DNA of 43,072 nt from Pseudofrankia coriaricola (GTDB lineage Bacteria > Actinomycetota > Actinomycetes > Frankiales > Frankiaceae), in NCBI RefSeq assembly GCF_001854805.1, contig NZ_MBLO01000050.1:1-43072 (forward strand), read 5' to 3'. The notes below the pieces were generated by a model. The model was not told the origin of the DNA. It did not search any database and saw only the letters and a program-made list of their open reading frames with translations. Each line of letters opens with the position of its first letter. Positions within the stretch are counted from its first letter, which is position 1. Below, in pieces: positions 3,733-23,620 of the stretch. Made by a program: the position numbers and the translations under genes.

Positions 3733-4911
3733 GTGCGCGCGTCCCGTGTTCGCCGTCCTAGGCTGGCCGCCGGTGCGTGCGCCGCCGCGTTGGCCTTGGG
3801 CGTGGCTGCATGCTCCGATTCCGGAGGCGCGTCGGGTGACGTGCCCTCGACCGGCGCGGGGCATGTGCCTTCCTCCAGGTACACGACGCCGCTGAAGGGG
3901 ATCTGCCCAGACCAGGTCATCGTCCAGGCGGGCTGGTGGCCCGAGATCGACGACGGGTTCCTCTATCAGCTCCTTGGGCCGAACCCGACGATCGACAAGG
4001 GCAAGAACCGGGTTTTCGGGCAACTCGGCGGCACGGGTGTCACGCTCGAGATCCGGGCCGGGGGCCCGGCCGTGGGCTTCCAACCGGTCTCCTCGCTGAT
4101 GGCCCAGGACGACGACATCCTGGCCGGCGTGGTGGGCATGGACGAGGCGGTCCAGCACTCCGGCAGCCAGCCGACGGTCGCGGTCTTCGCGTCGTACGAG
4201 AAGTCCCCGCTGGCGTTCATCTGGGGTGACCCGGCATGGAACTTCACCAGCATCGCCGACATCGGCCGGGCGGACGCCCCTGTGCTGGCCAGCACAGGGG
4301 CCGCCTACCTGGACGTCTTTGAACGGGAGGGGCTGCTGAACTCCTCGCGGATCGACACCTCCTACCAGGGCGACCCTGCTCGTTTCGTCGCCGCGGACGG
4401 GAAGATCGTGCAGCAGGCGTTCATCACCAACGAGCCCTACCGGCTCCAACATGACGTGAAGGCGTGGGGCAAGCCGGTGAAGTACCTTCTCCTGGGCGAC
4501 GAGTACCCGGTGTACCTGCCCTCGCTCGCCGTCCCAGCGGACAAGCTGACAGCCAACCGCTCCTGCCTCGGCAAGCTCGTGCCCCTGTTCCAACAGGCAC
4601 AGCGTGATTACGTCACCGACCCCGGCCCCACCAACCAGCTCCTGCTGCGGGCCGTCGCGACATTGAACACGAGCGGGTTCACCTTGTCCCCAGGTCTGCT
4701 CGCGGACGGCAACGCCAAGCAGAAGAGCCTCGGCCTGATCGCCAACGGAAAAGACGGGGTACTGGGCAGCTTCGACACCGCCCGAGTACAGAAGCTGATC
4801 GGCCAGCTGACACCGGTCTTCGAGGCCAAGGGCACCGAGCCGAAACCAGGGCTGGCGCCGTCGGACTTGGCGACCAACGAGTTCCTCGACAAGTCGATCT
4901 CCCTGGGCTGA
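3733..4911 (+). CDS. Substrate-binding lipoprotein, NMT1/SsuA-like (copy 1)
   Basis: This 392-residue protein begins with a lipoprotein signal peptide: Arg-rich n-region, Ala-rich h-region and lipobox LGVAAC with the lipidated Cys at residue 27. The GTG start at 3733 follows a strong ribosome site (GAAGGAGAG) four bases away. The mature part looks like the periplasmic-binding-protein-2 fold of ABC importers for nitrate, taurine or thiamine precursors, with segments such as GPAVGFQPVSSLMAQ and GKIVQQAFITNEPY. A close paralogue is encoded at 21420-22601 in inverted orientation, with the lipobox at the same residue. Neither copy has a permease beside it on the same strand; 769-2414 could supply one. 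The methyltransferase gene downstream is conserved beside both copies. Ligand unknown. Confidence 0.85.
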   Translation: MRASRVRRPRLAAGACAAALALGVAACSDSGGASGDVPSTGAGHVPSSRYTTPLKGICPDQVIVQAGWWPEIDDGFLYQLLGPNPTIDKGKNRVFGQLGGTGVTLEIRAGGPAVGFQPVSSLMAQDDDILAGVVGMDEAVQHSGSQPTVAVFASYEKSPLAFIWGDPAWNFTSIADIGRADAPVLASTGAAYLDVFEREGLLNSSRIDTSYQGDPARFVAADGKIVQQAFITNEPYRLQHDVKAWGKPVKYLLLGDEYPVYLPSLAVPADKLTANRSCLGKLVPLFQQAQRDYVTDPGPTNQLLLRAVATLNTSGFTLSPGLLADGNAKQKSLGLIANGKDGVLGSFDTARVQKLIGQLTPVFEAKGTEPKPGLAPSDLATNEFLDKSISLG

Positions 4912-4943
4912 CAGGACCGTGACGACCCCGGAGGCGGGGAGGT

Positions 4944-4973
4944 GAGGGCGTGGCCACCGTTTGTCGCGCCCTC
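4944..4973 (+). terminator. Short hairpin after the lipoprotein gene
   Basis: GAGGGCG (4944-4950) pairs with CGCCCTC (4967-4973) around a 16-base loop, 33 bases after the lipoprotein stop. The stem is only 7 bp, so it could be a weak terminator, an attenuator or chance. Confidence 0.3.
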
Positions 4974-5153
4974 CGGTTCCGCTGCAAGGCGGTGCACACA
5001 TCGGCGGACACACAGCGTACACGCCGAGTTGCTGCGAGCTGCCCGAAGGGAGATCAATGATACCCAGCGCGGCCGGGCACATGTGATCTTGTAGTGTGAT
5101 GCCTAGGACAGCCACCATGACAACGCTGGCCACCGCCTGCGAGGAGTGACCCG

Positions 5154-5969
5154 GTGAACGACGGCCCGCCACCCATGCTGGACATCGCCAAGCCACACTC
5201 GGCGCGGGTCTGGAACTATTTTCTTGGCGGCAAGGACTACTATCCCGCCGACCGCGAGTTCGCTGAGCAGGTTTACGAGTCCTACCCCGAAATAATTGAG
5301 GTGGCCCGCGCGGCCCGAGCCTTTCTCGGCCGCGCTGTCCGGTATCTGGCCGGCGAGGCGGGCATCCGACAGTTCCTGGACATCGGCACCGGTCTGCCGA
5401 CCGCTGACAACACACACGAGGTCGCGCAGCGGATCGCACCTGGGTCCCGCATTGTCTACATCGACAATGATCCCCTCGTACTGGTACACGCCCGCGCGTT
5501 GCTGACCAGCACCCCGGAGGGCGCCACCGCCTATATCGAGGCCGACGTACGCGACCCCGACAAGATTCTTGCGGGTGCAGCCGATGTCCTGGACTTCACC
5601 AAGCCGGTTGCGCTCATGCTGCTGGGGGTCATGGGGAACGTCGCTGACCTCGACGAGGCATACCGCATTGTGGGCCGACTCCGGGACGCATTGCCCTCTG
5701 GCAGCTACCTCGCCGTTCAGGACGGTACCCGCGTCGTCATGAGCGAACAGGAAGCAAAGACCCAGCAGGCCCTCAGCGAAGACATCGGGTACGGCTACCA
5801 GCTCCGCACCCCCGAGCAGATCGCCGGTTTCCTCGCCGGCCTCGAACTCGTCGAGCCCGGCGTGGTCTCGAGCCCACTGTGGCGGCCCGACCCCAACCCC
5901 GCTGGTCCGCCCGCGGAGGTGGACGAGTACTGCGGCGTCGGACGCATACTGGGTTCGAGCGTGCCGTAG
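5154..5969 (+). CDS. S-adenosyl methyltransferase, PF04672 (Methyltransf_19/DUF574) type (copy 1)
   Basis: This 271-residue protein belongs to an actinobacterial family of Rossmann-fold SAM-dependent methyltransferases whose substrates are mostly unknown. It has the family N-terminal hallmark HSARVWNYFLGGKDYYPADR (15-34), motif I DIGTGLPT (76-83) followed by NTHEVAQ, and motif II VYIDNDP (101-107), whose Asp104 should bind the SAM ribose. The GTG start at 5154 follows GAGGAG at 5141-5146. The paralogue at 20411-21208 is roughly two-thirds identical by eye and sits in an inverted copy of the same neighbourhood. The gene ends facing an XRE/DUF5753 regulator gene, a common partner in actinomycetes. 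The methyl acceptor cannot be inferred. Confidence 0.88.
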   Translation: MNDGPPPMLDIAKPHSARVWNYFLGGKDYYPADREFAEQVYESYPEIIEVARAARAFLGRAVRYLAGEAGIRQFLDIGTGLPTADNTHEVAQRIAPGSRIVYIDNDPLVLVHARALLTSTPEGATAYIEADVRDPDKILAGAADVLDFTKPVALMLLGVMGNVADLDEAYRIVGRLRDALPSGSYLAVQDGTRVVMSEQEAKTQQALSEDIGYGYQLRTPEQIAGFLAGLELVEPGVVSSPLWRPDPNPAGPPAEVDEYCGVGRILGSSVP

Positions 5970-5995
5970 ATCGTCGCGGTCGCAAGCCGGGGGTT

Positions 5996-6017
5996 AGCCC
6001 GCTCACTCGCGCGGGCT
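5996..6017. terminator. Hairpin between convergent methyltransferase and XRE genes
   Basis: AGCCCGC (5996-6002) and GCGGGCT (6011-6017) form a 7-bp stem with an 8-base loop, 26 bases after the methyltransferase stop. Its place between two converging genes suggests a two-way terminator. Confidence 0.4.
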
Positions 6018-6113
6018 CGGACTCCTCGGCGCGCACCGCATCGTCCACCTCCCGAGAGAACACGAGCGCGCCGTTCGGGCAATGCGAGCGTGACTCGGGA
6101 CCGGCCCCGCGGT

Positions 6114-6995
6114 CTACAGGGCGGCGGCAATCTTGCGGAGTATGACGGCTGTCTTGTCTGGAGTGCTGCTGTAGATGCACAGCTGGTCCATGGCGATCGT
6201 GTACTGATGCACGTCCTCGGGCTTGTCCAGGTAGGCAGCCCCGGTCAGCCGTTCAAGGTAGACAATGTCCGTCAGGCCGGGGTCGGGAAAACGCAGAATG
6301 CTGAACGCCCCGCCGTCGGCCGCGTGGCTACCGACGTCGAACGGTACCACCTGCACGACCAGCCGCGGCTGGTCGATCAGCTCGAGGAGATGCCTGATCT
6401 GCGCCCGCGCGATCCTTGGCCCGCCGATCCGCCGGCGTAGCGCGGCCTCGTCGATCACCATCCACAGGCGCGGGGCGTCCGGCCGTGCCAGCAGCTTCTG
6501 CCGGCGCATCCGGACGTCGACCCGACCGTCGATGACGTCCTGGGACATCCCCGGCCTGCCCGACATGACCGCGCGGGCGTAGTCCTCGGTCTGGAGAAGT
6601 CCAGGAATGAACTGGAGCTCGTAGCTCCGGATTTGCGAGGCTGACTCCTCCAGGTCGATATACGGCTGGAACCAGTGGGGAAGGACGTCGGAGTAGGGCT
6701 GCCACCAGCCCTGCTGGTTGGCCTCGCGGGCCAGTGTCAGCACCTGCTCCAGTTCGGCCCGGTCGGTCACGCCGTACAGCGTGAGCAGGTCCTCGACGTC
6801 GCGATTCTTGAAACTGACCCGACCCAGCTCGAGCCGGCTGATCTTCGACTCGGAGGCGCGGATGTGGTAACCGGCGTCCTCACGGCTGATCCCGCTACGT
6901 TCCCGGAGCCGCCGTAGCCGGGAACCGAGCAGGATACGACGCACGGTCGGCCCACTACCAGCCGAAACAGTCACGCCTGGCTCCCTCGATCCCAT
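6114..6995 (-). CDS. XRE-family regulator with DUF5753 sensor-like domain
   Basis: This 293-residue cytoplasmic protein has an N-terminal helix-turn-helix of the lambda-repressor/XRE type (about 24-77, LGSRLRRLRERSGISREDAG) and a C-terminal DUF5753 domain (about 105-285). Family features of the latter are the WFQPYIDLE segment, QFIPGLLQTEDYARA, the RMRRQKLLARP stretch and the ending AAYLDKPEDV. In Streptomyces such proteins resemble BldB/WhiJ-linked regulators, often paired with small DUF397 proteins; no DUF397 gene is visible here. It is transcribed towards the methyltransferase gene, an arrangement repeated in decayed form at 19980-20383. The ATG at 6995 is used; an internal GTG (VTVSAG) eight codons in is possible. 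Target genes are unknown. Confidence 0.88.
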   Translation of the reverse strand: MGSREPGVTVSAGSGPTVRRILLGSRLRRLRERSGISREDAGYHIRASESKISRLELGRVSFKNRDVEDLLTLYGVTDRAELEQVLTLAREANQQGWWQPYSDVLPHWFQPYIDLEESASQIRSYELQFIPGLLQTEDYARAVMSGRPGMSQDVIDGRVDVRMRRQKLLARPDAPRLWMVIDEAALRRRIGGPRIARAQIRHLLELIDQPRLVVQVVPFDVGSHAADGGAFSILRFPDPGLTDIVYLERLTGAAYLDKPEDVHQYTIAMDQLCIYSSTPDKTAVILRKIAAAL

Positions 6996-7544
6996 TCGCT
7001 AGCAGTAGGTCAGCCTATTGGAGCGTCATCGTTCCTCTGTCACCACCAGCACCACCGGAAGCGCCGGAAGCGCCGGGCTGGTCACAGGATAGGCGGCTGT
7101 GACCACCAATGGCCAACCCGGTCGCGCGAACGCGCATCCGGCCCGCGGCTGAAAGCGGTCGGGCACACCGGCACGGTCAGTGCCGTCTCGCAGGTGCTCG
7201 GGTCCTCTCCGATCGAGGACTGAACGATCGAGCGCTGAACCAGAGGACGGCCCCGGCGCGCGTCTGCCTGCCGACTAGTGCTCGTCTTCAGCGCCACATA
7301 CTCACCGGCATCCGGTGCGGTGGCTGCGCGGCCGAGTAGTCCCGGCATCCGGGAGGCGAACAGATGCCGCGGCACTCGGCCTATCTGGGATCGCCGCCGT
7401 GCGGTCAGCGAATGGGCGCCCGGGGCCTGTTCGCCGCGGCCGTGTCACGCTCGCGGACATCAGGCACGAGGTCACCCCGCCCGTATGGCTCGGTCAAGCC
7501 GGTCGCCCTGGAATCGGCGCCATGAATCGGACGCCGGGCTACGG
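6996..7544. other. Non-coding stretch upstream of the XRE gene
   Basis: No protein-like frame was found on either strand. A short direct repeat (GGAAGCGCC twice, near 7057-7075) lies close to the XRE gene start. The XRE promoter should be at its left end. Confidence 0.45.
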
Positions 7545-8810
7545 TCATGCCTTCAGGGTCTCTGTCCTGTGCAGGGTGGGGGCGAGCAGGGGTGGGTTGG
7601 CGGGCGTCTGGCAGGCGGTTGCCAGGTTGGGGGTGGGGCGGCCGAGGAGGTAGCCCTGGCCGTAGCGGATGCCGGCGTTGCGGGCGGCGGTGAGGTCGGC
7701 GGTGGTTTCGATGCCTTCGGCGACGACCCAACTTCCGATCTCGCCTGCGATGGTGGTGATCCCGGCGGCGACGGCGCGGTGGGCTAGGTCCCTGCTCATG
7801 GTCTGGATGATGAACCTGTCGATTTTGATGACGTCGGGGCGTAGGTAGAGCAGGAGTTCCAGGCCGGAGTAGCAGGTACCGAGATCGTCGACGGCGATGA
7901 GGACGCCGTGGCGGCGGAGCATGCCGACGGCTGCGAGCAGGCGCGGGTTGTCGCGGGCCTGCTCGTATTCGGTGATCTCGACCGCGAGCTGTTCGGGGTG
8001 GCCGGTGTCAACGAGGAGGTCGACGAGCCCATCGGTGACCGTGGAGGGCGCCGCGTTGACAGCGAGGCGGACATCGGCGGGCAGGTCGGGCAGGGCCGCC
8101 AGTGCTCGCTGGATCGTGGCGGTTTCCAGCTCTGGGCCCAGGCCGGCCGCCGCCGCGTCCCTGAACAGGGCAGCCGGTGATCGTGCCGGGTCGGGGAGGC
8201 GAGTCAGCGCCTCGAGGGCGGCGGTCCGCCCGGCGACGAGGTCGACGATGGGCTGATAGAAGATCCATAGCCCGTCGGAGTCGATCAGGTCGTGCACGCG
8301 GTGCCAGACCCGGCTACGGACTTCCCACATCCTGTGCAGGTCGGAGACGTAGTCGGTGAGGAATCCTGCGAGTAGATGCAGGAATCTCAGGTCACGTCGG
8401 CCGAGTGACGGCTGTGGTCTTCGGTGGAGGCAGCCAATCAGACCGTAGATGTCGCCGTCGGTGTCGAGGATGGGTGTCGCCACGTAGGCGCCGATACCGA
8501 GGTCGCGCACCGAGGAGGTGCCAGCGGTGCGTGGGTCGCGTCGGGTGTCGGGGATGAGTTCGGGCAGCTCACCGGTCAGGACCCGTCCGAACAGCCCGTT
8601 CTCGCGGCGGATGCTGCACCCGGGAGTCAGGCCGAACGGGTGGACGTTCCCGCAGAGTGTCTGAAGGATCAGCAGGTTGCCGTCGAGCCGGCCAAGCCAG
8701 GCGACCTCCATCCGCAGTCGCCGTCGTAGCAGGTCAACCAGGTCCAGCAGGGCGTAGCTGGATGCGCACACCTCGCTTCGCGGTCCCAGACAGGCCGGGC
8801 ATCCGGACAT
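7545..8810 (-). CDS. GAF-EAL protein, probable cyclic-di-GMP phosphodiesterase
   Basis: This 421-residue soluble protein has a GAF sensor domain (about 15-155) and a C-terminal EAL domain (about 170-400) that would linearise cyclic-di-GMP. The metal and catalytic residues of active EAL domains are all visible: Glu200 in the LEAL motif, Asn252 (VNAAPST), Glu278 (VEITEYE), Asp308/Asp309, Lys329 (VIKIDRF), Glu365 (VVAEGIET) and Gln385 (YGQGYLLGRP). The usual DDFG reads DDLG (loop 6), a mild change. A CPAC pair lies at residues 4-7. No membrane segment is present, so it should sense a cytoplasmic signal. A purine-rich ribosome site (GGGGGGAGAGGA) abuts the ATG at 8810. It may oppose the GGDEF enzyme at the window start. 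Confidence 0.9.
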   Translation of the reverse strand: MSGCPACLGPRSEVCASSYALLDLVDLLRRRLRMEVAWLGRLDGNLLILQTLCGNVHPFGLTPGCSIRRENGLFGRVLTGELPELIPDTRRDPRTAGTSSVRDLGIGAYVATPILDTDGDIYGLIGCLHRRPQPSLGRRDLRFLHLLAGFLTDYVSDLHRMWEVRSRVWHRVHDLIDSDGLWIFYQPIVDLVAGRTAALEALTRLPDPARSPAALFRDAAAAGLGPELETATIQRALAALPDLPADVRLAVNAAPSTVTDGLVDLLVDTGHPEQLAVEITEYEQARDNPRLLAAVGMLRRHGVLIAVDDLGTCYSGLELLLYLRPDVIKIDRFIIQTMSRDLAHRAVAAGITTIAGEIGSWVVAEGIETTADLTAARNAGIRYGQGYLLGRPTPNLATACQTPANPPLLAPTLHRTETLKA

Positions 8811-8929
8811 TCCTCTCCCCCCGACTCCGGGCTACCCAAGCGGCCATCGCGCACACCTGGCTGAAGGGCCCCGGCGGCGTGCTCACAGCCCGGTGACCGG
8901 ACACGTCGGAGCGACCGCATGATCACGCG

Positions 8930-9253
8930 GTGTCGGCGCCTCCCGACCCCGCTGCCGAGGCTGAGGCCGCCGAGTTCGAGCGCGGCCTGCACGCGATCAG
9001 GGTTCATGCGGCTGGCCATGGCACCACCGAGGTGCCCCATGGCTACGTCGACGAGTCCGGGTTCCCGCTCGCCGTCTGGGTCGCGGTCCAACGTGAGGCG
9101 CACCTGGAGCAGCGGCTCGGGGACGCTCGACGGGCGGCACTTGTGCGGCTTCCGGGGTGGCGGTGGCTGTGGCGGTTGTCTGCCCGACTCGATCGCTGTG
9201 ACCTTTTGCGTCCCCACTCCGAACTGGAAAACGACTCATCGCAGGCCAGGTAG
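8930..9253 (+). CDS. Small helicase-associated (HA) domain protein, possibly a fragment
   Basis: This 107-residue ORF contains one recognisable helicase-associated domain (PF03457-like): HGTTEVPHGYVDESGFPLAV, then Trp, an Arg-rich stretch, and the closing LPGWRW. In the family these repeats follow superfamily-2 helicases in long actinobacterial proteins. Here no helicase part is present on either side, so the ORF is either a free-standing repeat or the end of a lost gene. The GTG at 8930 has no good ribosome site. The stop lies ten bases before the carbonic anhydrase start, so the two could share a transcript. The product call rests on a short motif. Confidence 0.5.
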   Translation: MSAPPDPAAEAEAAEFERGLHAIRVHAAGHGTTEVPHGYVDESGFPLAVWVAVQREAHLEQRLGDARRAALVRLPGWRWLWRLSARLDRCDLLRPHSELENDSSQAR

Positions 9254-9263
9254 GTTGCTGCGC

Positions 9264-9899
9264 ATGCCCGACCTCGCACCCGCCTCGCCCGCCGACGCGT
9301 ATGCGGCCCTGCTGGAGGGCAACGCGCGGTTTGTGCATGGGGAACGGCTTCATCCCAATCAGGACGCCGACCGCCGATCAGCGGTGGTGCCGCGGCAGCG
9401 CCCGTTCGCGGTGCTGTTCGGATGTTCCGACTCCAGGCTCGCCGCCGAGATCATCTTTGACCGGGGGCTGGGCGACCTGTTCGTGGTCCGTACCGCTGGC
9501 CATGTCGCGGGCCCCGAGGTGCTGGGCAGTATCGAGTACGGCGTCCATGTGCTGGGGGCGCCACTGGTCGTCGTCCTTGGTCATGACTCGTGCGGCGCCG
9601 TCACCGCCGCATCCGAGGCTGACCGCGACGGGGTGGCGCCGGCTGGCTATATCGGAGACGTGGTGGAACGGGTCATGCCCAGCATCCTGTGGGCGCGCGC
9701 GGCGGGATGCACCGACATCGACCAGTTCGTCCTGGCCCACATCCGCCGGACGGTCGACGGGCTGGTGGGACGGTCGGCCCTGCTGGCGACCGAGGTCGCG
9801 GCAGGCCGGTGCGCGATCGTCGGACTGTCCTACCGTCTGGCGGACGGCACCGTCAGCGCCGTATCCCGTAAGGGGCCTCTCCCCGAGGTGGTCCGATGA
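9264..9899 (+). CDS. Beta-class carbonic anhydrase
   Basis: This 211-residue enzyme interconverts CO2 and bicarbonate in the cytoplasm. Zinc ligands Cys54 (FGCSDSR), His107 and Cys110 (GHDSCGAV) are present, as is the Asp56/Arg58 dyad, so it should be active. The length is usual for a bacterial beta-carbonic anhydrase. The frame is open upstream to 8919, but the extra residues are low-complexity. The ATG at 9264, preceded by AGGTAGG eight bases away, is the sensible start. It is convergent with the nitrate-assimilation genes. Bicarbonate supply for carboxylations or pH control is the likely role. Confidence 0.92.
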   Translation: MPDLAPASPADAYAALLEGNARFVHGERLHPNQDADRRSAVVPRQRPFAVLFGCSDSRLAAEIIFDRGLGDLFVVRTAGHVAGPEVLGSIEYGVHVLGAPLVVVLGHDSCGAVTAASEADRDGVAPAGYIGDVVERVMPSILWARAAGCTDIDQFVLAHIRRTVDGLVGRSALLATEVAAGRCAIVGLSYRLADGTVSAVSRKGPLPEVVR

Positions 9900-9989
9900 T
9901 CCACGCGAGCGCCCCGATCTGCGCGAACGATCGAGCGCCCGGCCGGCGGGAGCGGTGTCCGCTGGCCGCGCCGGGGGGCAGACCGGACA

Positions 9990-10136
9990 GCCTTGGATGC
10001 TGTGAACAGGGTCTGACCGGGCATGCCGACGATCGCGGTTGTCATCGATGACCTGGCCGAACTGATCGATCGCCCGGTAGAGATGGGTCCACCGGCCGGC
10101 GACCCTCAGATGCAGGATGCGTTGCCGGGTGTGCAT
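9990..10136 (-). pseudogene. IS6-family transposase remnant
   Basis: A short minus-strand stretch translates to LRVAGRWTHLYRAIDQFGQV followed by ID. This matches the core of IS6/IS26-type DDE transposases, where a G-x-W-x-Y-L-Y-R-A-[IV]-D-x-x-G segment contains a catalytic Asp. The frame then degenerates, and no start, flanking helix-turn-helix or inverted repeats can be seen. It is a dead fragment in the gap between the convergent carbonic anhydrase and nirD genes. Confidence 0.6.
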
Positions 10137-10187
10137 GTGGTGCAGACTGATCGGTGGATGGTCGGGGATGTAGCGCTCGACGGAGGG

Positions 10188-10541
10188 TCAGTATTGACCG
10201 ACGGCGACCTCGATGATTCCGTCGTCGCTGACCCGGATTGGGTAGCAGGTCAGGGGCGGCGCTCCGCTGGGTGATGTGCCGGTGGCCAGGTCGAAGGTGT
10301 TGCTGTGCAGGGGGCAGATGACGATCGTTTCGTCGGTTTGGCCGTCGGCGAGTGGGCCGCCGGCGTGTGGGCAGGACGCGTCGGTCGCCTGTAGCCGGCC
10401 GGAGCGCAGCCGGAAGACGGCGATCTGCTGGCCGGCCGCCGCGTAGGCTCGGGCCTCACCGATCGGGATCTCGGACAGTGGGCCGAGGCGGTGGAAGACG
10501 CCGTCCGGGCTGGTGTGGGTTGTTTCGGTGGTCGGGTTCAT
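10188..10541 (-). CDS. nirD: Nitrite reductase [NAD(P)H] small subunit (Rieske-type)
   Basis: This 117-residue protein is the small subunit of assimilatory nitrite reductase, which with NirB reduces nitrite to ammonium. It has a Rieske-like fold with CPHAGGPL (Cys57, His59) and CPLHSNTFDL (Cys76, His79). These give a full C-x-H...C-x2-H set, so unlike many NirD proteins it may still bind a [2Fe-2S] cluster. Its ATG at 10541 overlaps the nirB stop in an ATGA, so translation is coupled. It is the last gene of the minus-strand order nasA-nirB-nirD. Confidence 0.92.
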   Translation of the reverse strand: MNPTTETTHTSPDGVFHRLGPLSEIPIGEARAYAAAGQQIAVFRLRSGRLQATDASCPHAGGPLADGQTDETIVICPLHSNTFDLATGTSPSGAPPLTCYPIRVSDDGIIEVAVGQY

Positions 10542-13048: not shown

Positions 13049-13053
13049 CGGGC

Positions 13054-15600: not shown

Positions 15601-15809
15601 CGTCTCCCCACCGCCGCATCCGTGGCCACAGACGACATGGTCGGATCCACCGGTTTCGTCGCCGTGCCCCGCGTGTTACCTACCGCTACAGGGATCCGGC
15701 CTCCAGCCGTCGACCGCACCTGCATGCGAGCCCGGCGCAGTTGACCCGCGACCGACCGCGACACCCATGGTCTGACGGTGCGCCAGGCAATCCGATACCC
15801 ATACGGCTT

Positions 15810-15837
15810 GTTACACGCGTGCCATGGGCGACGTAAC
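15810..15837. promoter_or_regulatory. Candidate operator in the nasA-narK divergent promoter region
   Basis: GTTAC (15810-15814) and GTAAC (15833-15837) form an inverted repeat around a central palindromic GCCATGGGC, 51 bases upstream of the narK start. GTTAC resembles the first half-site of actinobacterial GlnR boxes (gTnAc-n6-GaAAc), but the second half-site is poor. A further GTTAC is at 15675-15679, nearer nasA. Nitrogen control by GlnR would be expected for these genes; the site itself is tentative. Confidence 0.3.
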
Positions 15838-15887
15838 GGAGCGCACCTACCGTGATCGGACCGGCCCGACCTCGGAGGAACGCGCCT

Positions 15888-17270
15888 ATGAGCACCTCGC
15901 TGGATGATGTTCCGCCGTCCGGATCCGTCACCATTCCTGCCCAACGTGGCCGGTGGATCGAGGACTGGCGGCCCGAGGACACCACATTCTGGTCCGGTGG
16001 CGGCGCGACGGTCGCGCGACGAAACCTGATCTTCTCCATCGTCTCGGAACACATCGGCTTCTCGATCTGGAGCCTGTGGTCCGTCCTCGTGCTGTTCCTC
16101 GGCCCAGAATATCATATCGACGCGGCCGGGAAATTTCTGCTGACGACGGTTCCCACCCTCGTCGGGGCGGTGCTTCGGCTGCCCTACACCTTCGCCGTGG
16201 CAAGGTTCGGCGGCCGGAACTGGACCATCTTCAGCGCTTCGGTGCTGCTGGTCCCGACCGTTCTGGCCGCGATCGTGCTCAAACCCGGCGTCTCCTACAG
16301 CACCCTGATCATCGTGGCGGCGGTCGCCGGTGTCGGCGGCGGCAACTTCGCCTCGTCGATGACGAACATCAACGCCTACTTTCCCGAGCGACTCAAGGGG
16401 CGCGCCCTCGGCCTCAACGCCGGCGGCGGCAACATCGGCGTCGCCGCCGTCCAACTCGTCGGCCTGCTCGTGCTCGCCACCGCAGGCAAAGGCCACCCCC
16501 GGGTCGTGCTCGCCATCTACATCCCACTCATCGTCCTCGCCGCGCTCGGCTCCTACCTGTTCATGGACAACCTCACCTCCGCCCGGAACGACAAACGAGC
16601 CATGCGCGACGTCTGCCGGGACGGCTACACCTGGATCATGTCTGTGCTCTACATCGGCACCTTCGGCTCGTTCATCGGCTTCGGCTTCGCCTTCGGCCAG
16701 GTACTGCAGGTCCAGTTCAAATCCGACTTCTCTACCCCGATCAAGGCCGCCTACCTGACCTTCCTGGGACCGCTGCTGGGATCGTTGGTCCGGCCGGTAG
16801 GCGGCGCCATGGCCGACCGTGTCGGCGGCGCCAAGGTGACCTTTTGGAACTTCGTCGCGATGGCCGTCAGCGCGGCGCTGGTGCTGATCGCCTCATTGGA
16901 GAAATCGCTGGCGCTGTTCCTGGCCGGGTTCATCGCGCTGTTCGTCTTCAGCGGCGTAGGGAACGGCTCGAGCTACAAGATGATCCCGGCTATCTTTCGG
17001 GCGAAATCGAAGCTGCTCATCGCCGATGGGGCGGACGCGACCATCTCCGACCGGGAGGCCCGCCGGCTGGCTGGTGCCCTCATCGGCATCGCCGGGGCGA
17101 TCGGCGCCTTCGGCGGAGTCCTGGTCAACCTCGCCTTCCGCCAGTCCTTCCTCACCTACAAGACCGGAAACGGCGCCTACATCGCCTTCATCGCCTACTA
17201 CGCAATCTGCTTCGCCCTCACCTGGTACACGTTCCTCCGGCCTTCACCGAAGAAGCTCGCCGGAATCTGA
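15888..17270 (+). CDS. narK: Nitrate/nitrite transporter, MFS (NarK/NasA-permease type)
   Basis: This 460-residue twelve-helix major-facilitator protein belongs to the nitrate/nitrite porter group. It carries two Gly-rich nitrate signatures: GVGGGNFASSMTNINAYFP followed by RLKGRALGLNAGGGN in the first half, and SGVGNGSSYKMIPAIF in the second. The ATG at 15888 is chosen because GGAGGAA lies seven bases upstream; the longer frame from 15852 lacks such a site. An insertion near residue 385 (SKLLIADGADATISDREARR) in the loop before the tenth helix is typical of actinobacterial members. It is divergent from nasA-nirB-nirD and presumably brings in the nitrate they reduce. Confidence 0.93.
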   Translation: MSTSLDDVPPSGSVTIPAQRGRWIEDWRPEDTTFWSGGGATVARRNLIFSIVSEHIGFSIWSLWSVLVLFLGPEYHIDAAGKFLLTTVPTLVGAVLRLPYTFAVARFGGRNWTIFSASVLLVPTVLAAIVLKPGVSYSTLIIVAAVAGVGGGNFASSMTNINAYFPERLKGRALGLNAGGGNIGVAAVQLVGLLVLATAGKGHPRVVLAIYIPLIVLAALGSYLFMDNLTSARNDKRAMRDVCRDGYTWIMSVLYIGTFGSFIGFGFAFGQVLQVQFKSDFSTPIKAAYLTFLGPLLGSLVRPVGGAMADRVGGAKVTFWNFVAMAVSAALVLIASLEKSLALFLAGFIALFVFSGVGNGSSYKMIPAIFRAKSKLLIADGADATISDREARRLAGALIGIAGAIGAFGGVLVNLAFRQSFLTYKTGNGAYIAFIAYYAICFALTWYTFLRPSPKKLAGI

Positions 17271-17294
17271 CAGCACCCAACGCCTACATCCACG

Positions 17295-17477
17295 GAGCAC
17301 GACCGGCTGTGTGAGCTGGAGGCACGGCGGCTGGTCGCGCGGGCCGAGCTGGCGGGGTTCCCGCCGCGCACCCGCTACACCCTCACGCCCGCCGGCGAGG
17401 CACTGCGCCCTCTGCTCATCAGCCTGTGCCGGACGGGGACGGCGATCCAGCACGCGGTGGCGACTCACCGGCCGTAG
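17295..17477 (+). pseudogene. HxlR-type winged-helix regulator fragment
   Basis: Without any start codon, the frame reads EHDRLCELEARRLVARAELA, then GFPPRTRYTLTPAGEALRPL and a stop at 17475-17477. This is the wing and final helix of an HxlR/DUF24-type DNA-binding domain (leucine-rich helix, then P-x-R-x-x-Y-x-L-T-x-x-G). The front half is missing. It lies directly after narK, so an ancestral regulator gene appears to have been cut here. The rest of the gap up to 17752 shows no protein-like frame. Confidence 0.6.
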
Positions 17478-17752
17478 CGCTGCCGCCGGCCAGGGCGACC
17501 CCTCGCCTTCCGGTCCGCACCGCGGTCTGCGCTTCCGCGCTCGGGTGGTCGACGAGCCGATCACTCGCCCTGGACCCTCGCGCGTCTCGAACTCCAGGCC
17601 CGCGTCAACACCGGCACAGATCATCGCCTGGGCTGGCCAGCCTGCCGGTGCCGTACTCGGCGGACTTGACAATCCAGCGGCCGCGAAGCCGGGCGGCCAC
17701 GCCGGACATCGGCGGAAAGGCCAGGCCAGCCAGATCTCGATGTCGGGAACGG

Positions 17753-18637
17753 TCAGTGGTCGCCGGGTCTGCCGAACTCCTCGATCAGCACCGGATACTG
17801 CTCCCCACCATGTCCGGCGGCGATCGAGCGGTCGGCCATCGCCTTGATCAACCTGGGCAGTTCGGCGTTGACTCCCACCGCCTCGCTCTCCTCGATCAGG
17901 TGCGCCATCGCCCGCGCGTCGGTCTCCAGGGCCGACACCTCGGCGGGGAAGGAGCCGCTGTCGATCTGCTCGGCATACCCGGGCAGCCATTCGGCCACGC
18001 CGGCAGCGATCTGCTGGGCGAACGGCGCGTACGTCGCGGCGTCGACACCGGCCGTCCTGAGCAGGGCAGTGCCCTGGAGCCAGGCGTTCAGGACGCTCCA
18101 CATCATGGCCAGGCCGGCCACGTCGTACAGGGACGCCAGCCCGTGGTCCGAGCCGAGGTAGGTGACGGTGCCGAGCGCGTCGAGTGTTGGCCTGTGTGCC
18201 TCGAAGTCCGACCGCGGCCCGCTGTGCAGAATCACCGCCTCGGCGGTCCCGATCGCCGCCGGGATGGCCATGATGGCGCCGTCCAGGTAGTGCGCGCCGC
18301 GCTGCTCGGCCAATCGGGCGGCTTCCCGGGCCTGGGCCGAGTCGCCCGAGGTAAGGTTGATCAACATCGTGCCGTCCAGCTCGATGTCGCTCGCGGCGAG
18401 CAGCTCGTGCATGGCTTGGTAGTCGGTGACGCAGATGACCGTCAGGGAACCTGTGCTGAGCGCGTCATCGACCGTCGGCGCGAGCCGTGCGCCCTCGGCC
18501 ACCAGCTGATCGGCCTTGGAGGTCGTGCGGTTCCACACGGTTGTGGGATGCCCGGCTTTCAGGAACGAACCGGCGAGTGCCTGGCCCATCCGTCCGAGTC
18601 CGATGACTGTCACGGGTGTGTCGGGGCTGTCGTCCAT
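17753..18637 (-). CDS. NAD(P)-dependent dehydrogenase, imine-reductase / 6-phosphogluconate-dehydrogenase-like
   Basis: This 294-residue protein has an N-terminal Rossmann fold with GLGRMG (13-18) and an Arg/Thr-rich loop (NRTTSKA, 37-43) after the second strand, which favours NADPH. A helical C-terminal half contains LASLYDVAGLAMMW (168-181); Asp172 is where imine reductases carry their proton-donor Asp. Length and pattern fit the imine reductase / beta-hydroxyacid dehydrogenase superfamily. The frame extends 29 codons upstream, but the ATG at 18637 fits the fold. It is divergent from a MerR gene across 49 bases and is probably controlled by that regulator. The natural substrate is unknown. 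Confidence 0.8.
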   Translation of the reverse strand: MDDSPDTPVTVIGLGRMGQALAGSFLKAGHPTTVWNRTTSKADQLVAEGARLAPTVDDALSTGSLTVICVTDYQAMHELLAASDIELDGTMLINLTSGDSAQAREAARLAEQRGAHYLDGAIMAIPAAIGTAEAVILHSGPRSDFEAHRPTLDALGTVTYLGSDHGLASLYDVAGLAMMWSVLNAWLQGTALLRTAGVDAATYAPFAQQIAAGVAEWLPGYAEQIDSGSFPAEVSALETDARAMAHLIEESEAVGVNAELPRLIKAMADRSIAAGHGGEQYPVLIEEFGRPGDH

Positions 18638-18686
18638 GGCAGCATCGTCAACGTTGAGACTGGTGTGAAGGTCAAGCGAGGTTTCG
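18638..18686. promoter_or_regulatory. Divergent promoter with a candidate MerR operator
   Basis: Only 49 bases separate the dehydrogenase and MerR genes. They contain TTGA (18654-18657) and TCAA (18672-18675) as outer arms of a 22-base imperfect dyad. The minus strand reads TTGACC, usable as a -35 element. MerR proteins act on such compact, over-long spacers. No clear -10 was found. Confidence 0.3.
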
Positions 18687-19094
18687 ATGCGGATCGGGGA
18701 GCTGAGTCGTCGGACGGGCGTCAACGCCCATCAGCTGCGCTACTACGAGGCCCAGGGCCTGCTGGAGGCAGACCGCGGCGCGAACGGTTACCGCGAGTAC
18801 GGCGACAACGCTGTGCTGCGGGTGACTCAGATCCGGCACCTGCTTGGGGCCGGTCTGTCGTCCGAGGACATCGCGTACCTGCTGCCCTGCGCGGTCGGAG
18901 AGGCCCCGGAGCTGCCCGGGTGCCCGGAGCTGCTGGCCGCGATGCGCTCCCGGCTGCGGCGACTGAACGACCAGATAGACAGGCTCGCACAATCCCGCGA
19001 CGCGCTCGCCACCTACATCGACGCGGCCGAGGGAATGGGTAGCGAGAGCTATCCACCCTTTGACAATGCTGGCCTGGAGCCCGCCCCTGCCTAA
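18687..19094 (+). CDS. MerR-family transcriptional regulator
   Basis: This 135-residue protein has the MerR N-terminal winged helix-turn-helix: MRIGELSRRTGVNAHQLRYY, then EAQGLLEADRGANGYREY. The domain is followed by the IRHLLGAGLSSEDIAYLL helix pair and a coiled-coil dimer helix (about 75-115). Two Cys residues (CAVGEAPELPGC) lie just before the coil, but the ligand-binding C-terminus is short and does not match a known metal or redox MerR. AGCGAGG precedes the ATG. The divergent dehydrogenase gene is the obvious target. Confidence 0.9.
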   Translation: MRIGELSRRTGVNAHQLRYYEAQGLLEADRGANGYREYGDNAVLRVTQIRHLLGAGLSSEDIAYLLPCAVGEAPELPGCPELLAAMRSRLRRLNDQIDRLAQSRDALATYIDAAEGMGSESYPPFDNAGLEPAPA

Positions 19095-19226
19095 CCGCAG
19101 GCGATCTCCGGCCGCAGGATCAGCCACACGGTGCACGCGGCGACGACGGCAGCGGGCAGTCCGACTTGCCGCTCGGGTGAACCCGGGCGGTGTTTGTTGG
19201 GGCCGTTGAGGGGTCCGGTCGTTATT

Positions 19227-19260
19227 GGCGCCTGTCGCCGGCAAGCCGGCGACAGGCGCC
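19227..19260. terminator. 34-base perfect palindrome, probable two-way terminator
   Basis: GGCGCCTGTCGCCGGC (19227-19242) and its exact complement GCCGGCGACAGGCGCC (19245-19260) are separated by only AA. It lies between the MerR gene end and the end of a decayed minus-strand frame whose TAG (19265-19267) is four bases away, so a terminator for converging genes is likely. No T-run is present. Confidence 0.6.
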
Positions 19261-19264
19261 GCTC

Positions 19265-19423
19265 CTACCAGGCGATCGAAGGCGCGCTGGGTGCGTCCGC
19301 GGGAGGCGGAACGTGGGTGACCTTGCCGGTGGCGAGGTCGATGCGGGCGAGTGCGCCTTGGAAGTTCGCGGCCATCGGCTCCGTCCCGGCAGGGTCTCGC
19401 GCCAAAATTGTGGCGGTCAGCTC
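19265..19423 (-). pseudogene. Short open remnant ending at the palindrome
   Basis: A 52-codon minus-strand frame with no start of its own, bounded upstream by a TAA, reads as ordinary protein (ATILARDPAGTEP, ANFQGALARIDLATGKVT) and stops directly before the 34-base hairpin. The Leu-Ala-Thr-Gly-Lys pattern resembles a beta-propeller repeat, but I do not recognise the family. The intact terminator beyond its stop suggests it is the end of a deleted gene. Confidence 0.3.
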
Positions 19424-19979
19424 TTAGTCAGCTACAGAACTCGTTCGCCCACGACCGCTCATGCCGATGAACGTGTGTTCCGAGTGGCAGTGAGCTCGTG
19501 TGCATCGTCGCTGTCTGTATGCGACGTCGTGGCCGAGGCCGAGCCAGATGATCGGGAGGCCATCGCGTCGGATTTCCTCCGTTCTCGCAGCTGCTCCCAC
19601 CTACTGGAAGAGACTCGCCGCGGGAGAGATCCCCCTTATTCGGGGGTGAGATATTCGCTGCCGGCAGAGCGTCTGGGCGTTAGCGAACGAGCATCGGCGG
19701 GAGCGGGTTCCTGGCCGCCACGCACGGCACGTGGATCGCCCGCGCGCTCCTCGCTCTTGGCCTTGCGATTGACTGTGCCTTCTGGCTGTCGATGCCGATG
19801 CCCGCGATCTACACGCTCAGCTTCGACGGCCCTCACCTGCGCCACGCGCTCGGCCCGGGTCTCGAGGCCGGAGGGTGACGCAACCGGCCCCACCCGCCAG
19901 GCGGAACCTGGTCAGGCGGTGGCGTGGGTGGCGCAGGTGTGGGCGAGGCGGTAGGAGTCGCTGCCCGTCTCGATTGAGT
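19424..19979. other. Gene-poor stretch with possible decayed ends
   Basis: No complete gene is seen. A plus-strand open segment without start (19684-19878) reads THGTWIARALLALGLAIDCA and onward as one hydrophobic helix plus a short tail; it may be the last part of a lost membrane protein. A small hairpin CCCCC-TTATTC-GGGGG lies near 19631-19646. Base composition is slightly more AT-rich than the neighbours, in keeping with old non-coding DNA. Confidence 0.35.
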
Positions 19980-20383
19980 CGGCAGGCCATTCTCGACCGG
20001 CCAGATCCGCCCCGGGCATGGGCGGTGATTGACGGGGCGGCACTGCGGCGCCCGGTCGCCGGGCCGGCCGTCATGCAAGGCCAGCTCGAACACCTGATCG
20101 CCCTGAACGAGAACCCGAACATCACCATCCAGGTGTTTCCGTACAACGTCGGCCCCCACCCCGCCGAGGGAGGCGCGTTCAGCATTCTGCGGTTCGGCGG
20201 CCGGACATCGCCGACGTCGTCTACCTGGAGCACCTCACGGGCGCCATCTACCTCGACAAGCCGGAAGACGTCACCCGCTACATGCTCGCCATGGACAACC
20301 TGGCGCTCAAAAGCACGGCGCCCGACGACACGGTAAAGGTCATCGAAAAAATCGCCTCGCACCTCTCACACCACGCCACGTGA
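19980..20383 (+). pseudogene. XRE/DUF5753 regulator remnant, N-terminus lost and frameshifted
   Basis: From 19980 the frame gives RQAILDRPDPPRAWAVIDGA and continues to AEGGAFSILRF, matching residues 165-236 of the intact regulator at 6114-6995 (RQKLLARPDAP; ADGGAFSILRF). Around 20195-20201 the frame shifts by one base. The second part, PDIADVVYLEHLTGAIYLDK then PEDVTRY, resumes the homology and ends at the TGA at 20381-20383. The helix-turn-helix and the first half of DUF5753 are absent. It is convergent with the methyltransferase gene, as in the intact module. No function is expected. Confidence 0.85.
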
Positions 20384-20410
20384 CGTCCGCCCCCGACCGG
20401 ACGACGGACG

Positions 20411-21208
20411 TCAGGGCTTCCGGCCGACGCCACACAGGTCGTCGATCGGCAGGGGCGGTTCGGCCGAGGGGCCGGGCCGCCACAACGGCGTCGAGACCAG
20501 ACCCGGCTCGACGAGTTCGAAACCGTCGAGGAAACGGGCCACCTGCTCGGGGGTGCGCATGTGGTACGGGTATTTCTCGTGCTCGTTGAGACGGTGGATG
20601 GCGTCGGCGCGGTCCTTGCCCATGACGGCGTAGGTGCCGTCCTTGAACATGAGGTAGCTGCCGGAGGGAAGGGAGTCGCACAGTTCGCGCACGATCGCGT
20701 ACGCCTCGTCGAGGTCGGTCACGTTTCCCATGATCCCGAGCATGATCAACCCGATCGGCTGGGTGAAGTCCAGGGTCTCGCGGGCGGCCTTGAGGATCTT
20801 CTTCGGCTCGCGGACGTCGGCGTCGACGTAGTTCGTGGCCCCCTCGGGCGTGCCGACCAGCAGGGCCCGCGCGTGCACCAGGACCAGCGGATCGTGGTCG
20901 ACGTAGACGATCCGTGAGTCGGGGCCGATCCGCTGCGCTACCTCATGGGTGTTGTCGGCCGTCGGCAGGCCGGTACCGATGTCGAGGAACTGCCGGATAC
21001 CCACCTCGCCGGCCAGGTAGGTGACTGCGCGGCCGAGAAAGGCCCGAGCCTGCCGGGCGAGCTGCACAATCTCGGGGAGCAACTCGTAGAGCCGGTCGCC
21101 GAACTCGCGGTCGACCGGATAGAAGTCCTTCCCGCCCAGCCAGTAGTTCCACACCCGCGCCGAGTGCGGCACGGTGATGTCGACAACGGGTGACGAACCG
21201 TCGTTCAT
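20411..21208 (-). CDS. S-adenosyl methyltransferase, PF04672 (Methyltransf_19/DUF574) type (copy 2)
   Basis: This 265-residue paralogue of the protein at 5154-5969 has the same marks: HSARVWNYWLGGKDFYPVDR, motif I DIGTGLPTADNTHEVAQR and motif II VYVDHDP. The two differ mainly in the middle and the C-terminus. The ATG at 21208 matches the start of copy 1 (MNDG) and has GAAGGGA about ten bases upstream; a GTG at 21247 is possible. It lies downstream of lipoprotein copy 2 on the minus strand, with an XRE remnant converging from the other side, so the whole neighbourhood is an inverted copy of 3733-6995. Target unknown. Confidence 0.88.
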   Translation of the reverse strand: MNDGSSPVVDITVPHSARVWNYWLGGKDFYPVDREFGDRLYELLPEIVQLARQARAFLGRAVTYLAGEVGIRQFLDIGTGLPTADNTHEVAQRIGPDSRIVYVDHDPLVLVHARALLVGTPEGATNYVDADVREPKKILKAARETLDFTQPIGLIMLGIMGNVTDLDEAYAIVRELCDSLPSGSYLMFKDGTYAVMGKDRADAIHRLNEHEKYPYHMRTPEQVARFLDGFELVEPGLVSTPLWRPGPSAEPPLPIDDLCGVGRKP

Positions 21209-21419
21209 GGGTAACGTTCCCTTCGCAGCCTTCGCAAGGGTGGCCACAAGACCCCGATGCTCATCATAGGGACCGTCCAGGGCGGGGCCGCCCCGGACGT
21301 CGCCCGTCTTCCGCCGCCGTTCCGGCCGGTCACCCGGCCCGCCACCTCGCCGGGCAGGAGTGCCGGGCGGGTGCCGCCCCGGCCGGCGCGGCCCCGCCCA
21401 TCCCTTACTGCAAAGCCCT

Positions 21420-22601
21420 CTACTTCAACGTCACCGTCTTGTCGAGGAACTCGTTGGTCACCAGGTCCGAAGGAGCCAGCCCCGGCTTCGGCTCGCTACC
21501 CTTCTCGGTGAAGACCGGGACCAGCCGGCCGATCAGCGTCCCTACCCGGGCCGTGTCGAAGCTGCCCAGCACTCCGTCACTGCCGTCGGCGATCAACCCG
21601 AGTTGCTTCTGTGTGGCGTTGCCGTACGCGAGCAGCCCCGGCGAAAGGGTGAACCCGCCCGTGTGCAGCGTACTGACGACCTTCAGCAGGAGCTGGTTCA
21701 CCGGCGCCGGATTGGCGACGTAGTCCCGCTGCGCCCGCTGCAACAGCGGCACCAGCTTGGCCAGGCAGGCGCGCTGGGTCGACACCTTGTCCGGCCGAAC
21801 GGCCAGCGCGGAGATGTACGCCGGGTATTCGTCCTGCAAAAGCAGGGACTTCACCGGCTTGCCCCACGCCTTGACGTCGTGCTGGAGCAGATAGGGTTCG
21901 TTGGTGACGAACGCCTGCTGCACGATCTTGCCATCGGCGGCGACGAACCGGTCCGGGGATCCCTGATAGGAGGTGTCGACCTGGGACTTGGTCAGCAACC
22001 CCTCCCGGATGAAGACGTCGGGATAGGACGTCCCGCTCGCGCTGGCCAGCACCGTCGCGCCCGACTGGCGGATCTCGGCGACGTTGGTGAAGTTCCACGC
22101 CGGGTTGCCCCAGATCAGCGCCAGCGGAGACTTCTCGTAGGGCGCGAAGACGGCGACCGTCGGCTGCCCCCCGGAGGCCTGCACGGCCTCGTCCGTTCCC
22201 ACATAGCCGGCCAGGATGCTGTCGTCCTGAGCCAGTAGCGAGGTCACCGGCTGGAAACCCGTCGCCGGCCCGCCTGCGCGCAGCTGGAGCCTCACGCCGG
22301 TAGCGCCCAGCTCTCCCTCGACCCGGTTCTTGCTCACGTCGATCGTCGGGTTCGGGCCGAGAAGCTGGTACAGGTACCCGTCGGGAAGGCCGGGCCACCA
22401 GTTCGACTGAATGACGACCGTGGACGGGCAGATCCCCTTCAGCGGCGTCGTGTAACGCGACGCGGCGGCGGACCCCGTGGCGGATGCGCTCACCCCACCG
22501 GACCCGCTCGACGAGTCGGAACAGGCGGTCAGGCCGAACGTCAGCGCCGCGGCGCATCCGCCGACCGCCACCCAACGGCGGCGAAACCTCGAAACTCGCA
22601 C
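21420..22601 (-). CDS. Substrate-binding lipoprotein, NMT1/SsuA-like (copy 2)
   Basis: This 393-residue paralogue of the lipoprotein at 3733-4911 is similar over the full length: both share SRYTTPLKGICP, YQLLGPNPTID, FVAADGKIVQQAF and the C-terminal KPGLAPSDL. The lipobox FGLTAC places the lipidated Cys at residue 27, as in copy 1. The GTG at 22601 is chosen over the longer frame to 22655 because it aligns with copy 1 and has GAGGAG ten bases upstream. The spacer between lipobox and fold is Ser/Gly/Ala-rich. No transporter genes are adjacent. It may use the ABC proteins at 769-2414 or act as a sensor of an extracellular ligand. Confidence 0.85.
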   Translation of the reverse strand: MRVSRFRRRWVAVGGCAAALTFGLTACSDSSSGSGGVSASATGSAAASRYTTPLKGICPSTVVIQSNWWPGLPDGYLYQLLGPNPTIDVSKNRVEGELGATGVRLQLRAGGPATGFQPVTSLLAQDDSILAGYVGTDEAVQASGGQPTVAVFAPYEKSPLALIWGNPAWNFTNVAEIRQSGATVLASASGTSYPDVFIREGLLTKSQVDTSYQGSPDRFVAADGKIVQQAFVTNEPYLLQHDVKAWGKPVKSLLLQDEYPAYISALAVRPDKVSTQRACLAKLVPLLQRAQRDYVANPAPVNQLLLKVVSTLHTGGFTLSPGLLAYGNATQKQLGLIADGSDGVLGSFDTARVGTLIGRLVPVFTEKGSEPKPGLAPSDLVTNEFLDKTVTLK

Positions 22602-23571: not shown

Positions 23572-23584
23572 TGTCCCTCCTCGC

Positions 23585-23607: not shown

Positions 23608-23620
23608 TAGCCTGTGCGAT

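Follow-up and report, generated by a model that had tools for sequence, protein, structure and literature searches.

A conserved unit of binding lipoprotein, ABC importer, PF04672 methyltransferase and XRE/DUF5753 regulator, present as two copies of different descent on one contig of Pseudofrankia coriaricola

What could a surface lipoprotein have to do with a methyltransferase and an XRE-family regulator, and why do the genes for all three occur twice, in opposite orientation, in one stretch of 43,072 nucleotides of the Pseudofrankia coriaricola genome (contig NZ_MBLO01000050.1; this whole stretch is referred to as the window)? The original prediction, made from the letters of the window, had described an inverted duplicate of a three-gene unit. 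All six genes lie where it had placed them (Table 1), gene order, relative strand and spacing are indeed alike in copy 1 and copy 2, and the XRE gene of copy 2 is, as it had said, decayed, being a DUF5753 remnant with a broken frame and no HTH. The unit that we find is larger and consists of a binding protein, a permease, an ATPase, a methyltransferase and an XRE regulator; its computed support comes from co-occurrence, largely parallel trees, a binding-protein fold and a methyltransferase fold. No description of this combination was found in the literature searched.

Table 1. Positions of the module genes and associated features in the window
Feature	Position	Strand	Remarks
ABC importer permease, beside copy 1	769..1638	-	PF00528, 92 bits
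ABC importer ATPase, beside copy 1	1635..2549	-	PF00005, 93.8 bits
Copy 1 lipoprotein, substrate-binding protein	3733..4911	+	lipobox Cys27
Copy 1 PF04672 SAM methyltransferase	5154..5969	+	344.9 bits vs gathering cut-off 26
Copy 1 XRE/DUF5753 regulator, Sco1979 family	6114..6995	-	NF058600, 392.4 bits; PF19054, 202.8 bits
Perfect 9-bp inverted repeat, candidate operator	7079..7105	.	upstream of copy 1 XRE; picked post hoc
Copy 2 block, sharply bounded, common to congener G031	19975..22821	.	93.3% over 2850 aligned columns
Copy 2 XRE remnant	19975..20383	+	HTH half missing; frame broken near 20195-20201
Copy 2 PF04672 methyltransferase, open frame	20411..21208	-	334.2 bits vs cut-off 26; dN/dS 0.305 vs G031
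Copy 2 lipoprotein (substrate-binding protein), open frame	21420..22601	-	dN/dS 0.307 vs G031

Descent of the two copies

In pairwise alignment, the lipoproteins of the two copies are identical at 276/392 positions (70%) and the methyltransferases at 178/264 (67%), and at the DNA level the copies pair as inverted arms (600, 561, 590 and 99 nt; 74-83%). The two look-alike blocks are real, but to call one a duplicate of the other is misleading, and the idea that one block had been copied and inverted in place is not supported. In the lipoprotein tree, copy 1 is joined by a third copy, from contig C79 of the same genome (100/100), and copy 2 falls within a clade of the congener G031 and Frankia (99/96), and the methyltransferase tree returns the same grouping (100/99 and 98/94). 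A local inverted duplication was therefore rejected, the copies not being each other's closest relatives in either tree; on this phylogenetic reading they are different, older lineages of one conserved unit. Between copy 2 and G031 the lipoproteins are 95% identical, and the DNA match of the two loci stops at the same boundaries when positions 15600-28200 serve as the query, among the matches listed. Judged by these sequences, copy 2 is an orthologue of the G031 locus cut off inside the XRE gene. It would be the remnant of an orthologue of the congener's complete locus; with its end inside the XRE gene, it lacks the HTH half of that gene and, further on, the ABC genes.

The protein trees, proposed at the outset as a check, largely agree: all five show largely the same groups, the methyltransferase departing in one group. 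The XRE tree was built without the XREs of the six split loci, and the two copy 2 XRE pieces have long branches in it, both having been extended beyond their own frames; the lipoprotein tree includes nine outgroup rows, some with long branches.

Do the genes between the copies belong to the same story? The copies bracket c-di-GMP and nitrate genes, as was claimed (a GAF-EAL gene and nitrite-reductase and molybdopterin-oxidoreductase genes lie between them). A tie of these genes to the module found no support in the search of eight congeneric genomes with 15600-28200, a segment that takes in only part of the surroundings and leaves out the EAL and nitrite/nitrate genes; the long non-module matches, among those listed, were in an MFS gene, away from the modules. 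As to spread by plasmids, 72,556 plasmid records held one distant match (29.3%). A role in anti-phage defence was rejected, no specific PADLOC model being matched in a scan of P0001, P0002, P0003, P0005, the permease and the ABC ATPase; for the ATPase there are four matches, each to part of a PADLOC ATPase model.

Importer, methyltransferase and regulator

The three genes of the originally proposed unit stand, but its extent does not, the ABC permease and ATPase genes that adjoin copy 1 having been overlooked. These two genes (BPD_transp_1 and ABC_tran) adjoin copy 1 only, copy 2 and the C79 copy having no such gene to a distance of 6 kb, and they back the import function suggested at first. 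The lipoprotein combines a lipobox, whose Cys27 is invariant across the five paralogues of the same genome, with a predicted type II binding-protein fold that is closest to thiamin- and pyrimidine-binding proteins. Its earlier designation as NMT1-like is borne out as a similarity of fold and not as an NMT1/THI5-type Pfam match, the lipoproteins of both copies matching no Pfam family at E<=1; a sequence comparison with the PDB likewise gave no match at E<=1. Together with the permease and ATPase, the lipoprotein makes up a NitT/TauT-like importer as its binding protein, an importer that, by homology, would take up its ligand at the expense of ATP. Such importers (TauABC, SsuABC, NrtABCD, and thiamin/FAMP binding proteins) share with the module the type II fold, PF00528 and PF00005; the module differs from them in its lipoprotein, which is without a Pfam match, in its NCBIfam scores and in its methyltransferase and XRE regulator. 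The best NCBIfam scores of the module include TauB, NtrCD, NtrB, SsuC and TauC, no cut-off being reached; for the permease, the best models are SaoP, NtrB, SsuC and TauC, every one under its cut-off. The named taurine, nitrate and sulfonate equivalogs TauB, NtrB and SsuC were ruled out, since their curated cut-offs were missed (174.6 of 357, 64.2 of 209.05 and 60.1 of 347, respectively). The runner-up of the same kind in the genome reaches 53% for the permease and, among the 150 of 326 candidates scored, 62% for the ATPase. In most of the close homologues of the ATPase the alignment begins at about residue 55, and its true start may be near 2384.

Both methyltransferases far exceed the gathering score of PF04672 (Methyltransf_19; Table 1), a family with 29 matches in this genome, and they belong by sequence and fold with the PF04672/DUF574 proteins 3giw (SAV_2177) and 2qe6 (Tfu_2867); 3giw is described as a protein whose function is unknown, with an unknown ligand that resembles phenylalanine (PMC2954221). 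In trees that included 16 paralogues from the same genome and left out broken or partial ones, the methyltransferases of G008 and G024 stand apart from the rest of the module enzymes as a separate PF04672 branch, whereas the paralogues L009, L011 and L012, together with the second methyltransferases of C79, G001 and G004, are placed among them; on this branching, the methyltransferase gene has probably been swapped or recruited more than once.

The copy 1 regulator consists of HTH_31 and DUF5753 in Pfam scans and exceeds the curated cut-off of 350 for the Sco1979 family NF058600 in a scan of this protein. The copy 2 remnant retains DUF5753 (89.4 bits for 19980-20195) and no HTH. The two domains of the copy 1 regulator are reported for SCO1979 as well (PMC10364602). 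In the Streptomyces pairs SCO1979/SCO1978 and Scr1/Scr2, however, the XRE regulator is partnered by a DUF397 protein, whereas in the module its neighbour is a PF04672 methyltransferase; DUF397 (PF04149) occurs at eight places in the P. coriaricola genome, none of them on C50 or C79. Among XREs at least 50% identical to that of copy 1, 12/25 have a PF04672 gene or fragment within 1 kb (11/25 without fragments, which were counted for the P. coriaricola genome only), as against 0/31 of the less similar DUF5753 XREs, and these counts speak in favour of the original suggestion that the XRE protein may be the switch and methylation the output. Upstream alignments yielded lineage-specific blocks only and no conserved operator; the palindrome upstream of the copy 1 XRE gene, a pattern picked post hoc with an expected count of 0.02, occurs nowhere else in the window. 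No thiamin riboswitch was found at the gathering threshold in the five sources scanned (the window, L144, L036, L063 and L078).

Gene neighbourhoods across the Frankiaceae

Does the association hold elsewhere? Across 35 Frankiaceae genomes, every locus of the lipoprotein clade (25/25) has a PF04672 methyltransferase within 4 kb, in 23 of them directly downstream of the lipoprotein, and the two genes are co-directional at a spacing of 61-246 bp in 23/25. With this adjacency, which the original prediction had proposed to examine, and with trees that largely agree, the association is not chance. The 57 loci outside the clade carry a permease (55), an ATPase (54) and an amidohydrolase (53), but in none is there a PF04672 methyltransferase within 4 kb or an XRE gene within 6 kb, even though the looser identity limits were applied to this group, the one where methyltransferase and XRE were not found (30% for methyltransferase, XRE and permease, 40% for ATPase and 25% for amidohydrolase, as against 50% for the methyltransferase and 45% for the others at module loci). 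In one such locus, L072, a methyltransferase lies about 6.7 kb away. The amidohydrolase ABC operons (C230 of the same genome, Nocardia, Modestobacter and others) have a lipoprotein, permease and ATPase homologous to those of the module, which holds a methyltransferase and an XRE regulator where these relatives hold an amidohydrolase. The related systems of this binding-protein family are not uniform, since the C240 paralogue of P. coriaricola is accompanied by a Rieske-type oxygenase, with no amidohydrolase detected.

The transporter genes are less constant. An ATPase gene lies within 6 kb in 11/25 clade loci, and no transporter gene does so at copy 2, C79, G018a or G020a; the permease match of G024 is in two pieces. 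Six loci lack an XRE gene; each of the six genomes concerned has one elsewhere, next to the cognate ATPase gene of a second locus, and in the single pair compared this ATPase is constrained (dN/dS 0.149). The cognate ATPase was not found in G006, G007 or G030 (in G030, among the 150 of 294 candidates scored), although a related one (~60%) is present in all three. Of the cognate ATPase, only the last ~23 residues are left in G006/G007, where purifying selection nevertheless acts on permease, lipoprotein, methyltransferase and XRE (dN/dS of 0.13-0.28, with 0.281 for the permease).

Possible functions of the unit

How might these parts work together? The reading that we favour, to which we give about an even chance, is that the lipoprotein, permease and ATPase import a small molecule, that the methyltransferase modifies it and that the XRE protein controls the unit. 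As ligand we would expect a small N-heterocycle that resembles a pyrimidine or a nucleobase; the PF04672 enzyme would use SAM to methylate the imported molecule or a product of it, and the Sco1979-type XRE/DUF5753 protein, responding to ligand or product, would control expression. The three binding-protein/methyltransferase pairs of P. coriaricola (copy 1, copy 2 and C79) would share one cognate permease and ATPase, if any, namely those beside copy 1. Several observations count against this reading: the cognate ATPase not found in G006, G007 and G030, although the permease of G006/G007 is constrained; the four loci free of transporter genes within 6 kb; the lipoprotein's want of a Pfam match; the probable swapping or recruitment of the methyltransferase gene; and the unevenness of the related systems.

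Other readings have to be weighed against it. Methyltransferase and XRE might be an independent regulatory pair that merely lies beside an importer, the enzyme acting on another substrate. In 7/8 congeneric genomes there are eight XRE-methyltransferase pairs that have neither lipoprotein nor permease, the methyltransferase being in some cases broken or partial. These pairs speak for independence, as does the large paralogous family to which the enzyme belongs; yet the methyltransferase stays beside the lipoprotein in the six loci that lack an XRE gene, so that the tie is one of lipoprotein and methyltransferase and not only of XRE and methyltransferase. With the close, co-directional spacing added, we consider an independent pair rather unlikely. 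Could the cluster, alternatively, have no joint function and simply hitchhike on a mobile segment? The sharp bounds of copy 2, whose break abuts short repeats that occur elsewhere, would fit, and when G031 is compared with Frankia G001, the module has diverged less at synonymous sites (0.16-0.25) than one related ABC locus (0.36-0.44), a difference that suggests transfer. Gene order, however, is held across genera, the trees run largely parallel, ATPase and XRE stay together at split loci and the genes are under purifying selection, and hitchhiking is strongly disfavoured, to the point of being barely credible.

The uneven record of the ATPase raises a further question: is transport needed at all? 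Binding protein and permease might sense a molecule outside the cell, with methyltransferase and XRE relaying the signal and uptake being secondary. The constant core of binding protein and methyltransferase, the reduced ATPase of G006/G007 beside four constrained genes, and the XRE-methyltransferase pairs that do without lipoprotein or permease would all suit a receptor of this kind; against it stand the cognate ATPases at second loci in six genomes, the related ATPase that could serve in G006, G007 and G030, and Pfam scans that found no signalling domain in these proteins. We regard it as quite unlikely. Its more specific form, a transporter-derived environmental sensor in which a dedicated methyltransferase/XRE pair would learn of an N-heterocyclic signal outside the cell through lipoprotein and permease, without an ATPase of the unit's own in G006, G007 and perhaps G030, appears very unlikely.

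For the biology of these organisms, the locus places a Sco1979-type XRE beside a methyltransferase and not beside the usual DUF397 partner, and a permease that persists in two Frankia genomes although its ATPase has decayed poses the question of ATPase sharing versus transport-free sensing. The sources consulted for this analysis assign no function to PF04672, a large family of actinobacterial methyltransferases; through its strict tie, in these genomes, to a single lineage of binding proteins, the substrate of the enzyme becomes testable via the ligand of the lipoprotein.

Association of the lipoprotein with the methyltransferase

The original prediction joined the lipoprotein, read here as the substrate-binding protein of a NitT/TauT-like importer, to a PF04672 methyltransferase (MT), and the two do occur together: among 35 Frankiaceae genomes, a lipoprotein threshold of E<=1e-100 returned 25 loci in 21 genomes, all with a PF04672 gene within 4 kb. 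In 23 of the 25, this gene lies directly downstream on the same strand after a gap of 61-246 bp; in genomes G008 and G024 it stands past the ABC genes on the opposite strand. Within 6 kb of the 25 lipoproteins, an XRE gene was found 19 times, a permease 19 times and an ATPase 11 times, and in G012 and G002, where the locus is close to a contig end, a cognate permease is on a different contig. The 25 lipoproteins form one clade (support 99/97, in a tree with nine outgroup rows), beside which a Chloroflexota MAG protein branches next.

The search of genome contigs found 65 loci of the lipoprotein family, eight of them module and 57 non-module loci. The latter carry a permease (55), an ATPase (54) and an amidohydrolase (53), and neither an MT nor an XRE was found at any of the 57 (47 with at least 6 kb on each side); at one, L072, an MT lies about 6.7 kb off. 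The ATPase and amidohydrolase of the type on contig C230 of the P. coriaricola genome are 97% and 94% identical to their Pseudofrankia asymbiotica counterparts. Across 393 genomes of the class, with up to four lipoprotein candidates scored per genome, 12 outside Frankiaceae have a lipoprotein at E<=1e-50, each of these at most 46% identical; within the sample, the module would thus be known from Frankiaceae only. Every part of it is a member of a known family or fold, and no description of the combination surfaced in the literature searched, the coverage of which was partial.

The predicted agreement of the protein trees is borne out in large part, since mostly the same groups recur: copy 1 with the set on contig C79 of the same genome; copy 2 with the congener G031, G015 and Frankia; G008 with G024; G026 with G018a and G020a; and G017, G019, G021, G022, G018b and G020b with G030. 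The departures are in the MT tree, where the enzyme of G008 and G024 stands on a PF04672 branch of its own and certain paralogues are interleaved with the module MTs. Lacking ABC genes at the locus, C79, G018a and G020a inform the lipoprotein, MT and XRE trees only; the XRE tree left out the XREs of divided loci.

Copies in the genome and their origin

All six genes originally named in the window were found in place, and the matching order, strand and spacing of the two blocks were upheld, their DNA pairing as an inverted repeat. The lipoproteins are 70% and the MTs 67% identical, and a Pfam profile scan places both MTs clearly in PF04672. The copy 1 XRE combines HTH_31 with DUF5753 and scores above the cut-off of the Sco1979 family model in NCBIfam; its copy 2 counterpart is, as predicted, a decayed remnant, with DUF5753 in part only and split over two frames.

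Features of the module copies and their surroundings
Feature	Stretch	Position (strand)	Remark
Permease, copy 1	window	769-1638 (-)	
ATPase, copy 1	window	1635-2549 (-)	
Lipoprotein, copy 1	window	3733-4911 (+)	
MT, copy 1	window	5154-5969 (+)	
XRE, copy 1	window	6114-6995 (-)	
GAF-EAL protein	window	7545-8810	adjoins copy 1
Carbonic anhydrase	window	8919-9899	adjoins copy 1
Short repeat	window	19709-19867	adjoins copy 2 break at 19975; 84-88% in G030-G033, among matches listed
Second short repeat	window	19910-19974	at copy 2 break; present in C62 (same genome), among matches listed
XRE remnant, copy 2	window	19975-20383 (+)	
MT, copy 2	window	20411-21208 (-)	
Lipoprotein, copy 2	window	21420-22601 (-)	
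Match to G031	window; L144	19975-22821; 9180-12023	93.3% identity, 2850 columns
Group-II-D1D4-2 intron match (Rfam)	window	35421-35539 (+)	112.3 bits
Decayed PF04672 gene divergent from open XRE frame	C114 (same genome); L178	31037-32721; 6041-7722	
Second PF04672 gene	C79 (L035)	5824-6603	beside third module copy
Fragment of another PF04672 gene	C79 (L035)	6896-7063	beside third module copy
Second PF04672 gene	L160, Frankia	11958-12707	upstream of module
Second PF04672 gene	L162, another Frankia genome	12714-13463	upstream of module

No reverse transcriptase match was obtained among the scanned ORFs neighbouring the intron match.

One end of the match of copy 2 to G031 falls inside the XRE gene, the opposite end about 220 bp upstream of the lipoprotein gene. 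Because the G031 locus extends past it, into the ATPase and permease, copy 2 is left without half of the XRE and without the transporter. Its lipoprotein and MT frames are open, with dN/dS of about 0.3 against G031. The repeats at 19709-19974 are possibly the scar of a mobile element. The third set, on C79, is closer to copy 1 (lipoprotein 84%, MT 90%, XRE 82% identical), and no ABC gene was found on this 12.8-kb contig, the ends of which resemble, by eye, transposase ORFs. For its three binding proteins this genome has a single cognate permease, with the runner-up at 53%, and a single cognate ATPase, with the runner-up at 62% (150 of 326 candidates scored).

Free-standing XRE-methyltransferase pairs

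In eight congeneric genomes, a PF04672 gene or fragment lies within 1 kb of 12 of the 25 XREs at least 50% identical to that of copy 1, and of 0 of the 31 less similar DUF5753 XREs. Eight of the 12 cases, from seven genomes, are divergent pairs 429-527 bp apart, some with broken or partial MTs, and the 4.4-15 kb inspected round each yielded no module-type lipoprotein or permease; the other four are module loci. Among 29 MT matches examined in the P. coriaricola genome, six have an XRE within 1.5 kb, and each of the six belongs either to one of the three lipoprotein loci or to the decayed pair on C114. The XRE frame of that pair shares 76% identity with the XRE of copy 1, and the pair is a relic of a free-standing XRE-MT pair. 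DUF397 occurs at eight places in this genome, none of them on C79 or on C50, the contig of the window.

Divided and reduced loci, and exchange

Six module loci (G017, G019, G021, G022, G018b and G020b) lack the XRE and the ATPase. Each of these genomes has one homologue of the copy 1 ATPase, at 67-75%; because an XRE gene adjoins it in all six, ATPase and XRE stay together despite the divided locus. Neither lipoprotein nor MT was matched on the stretches fetched round them.

In the sister Frankia genomes G006 and G007, all that is left of the ATPase is roughly the final 23 residues, preceded by the same short start, this tail sitting between XRE and permease (L158 and L159, respectively). The remaining genes are nonetheless under purifying selection between the two (dN/dS: lipoprotein 0.194, MT 0.134, XRE 0.229, permease 0.281). 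Either a related ATPase (about 60%) serves the permease, or the role of the unit is independent of ATP hydrolysis.

For the five module genes, synonymous divergence between G031 and Frankia G001 amounts to 0.16-0.25, against 0.36-0.44 in the case of three genes from a single related ABC locus; the comparison suggests, without proving it, that the module was exchanged between genera.
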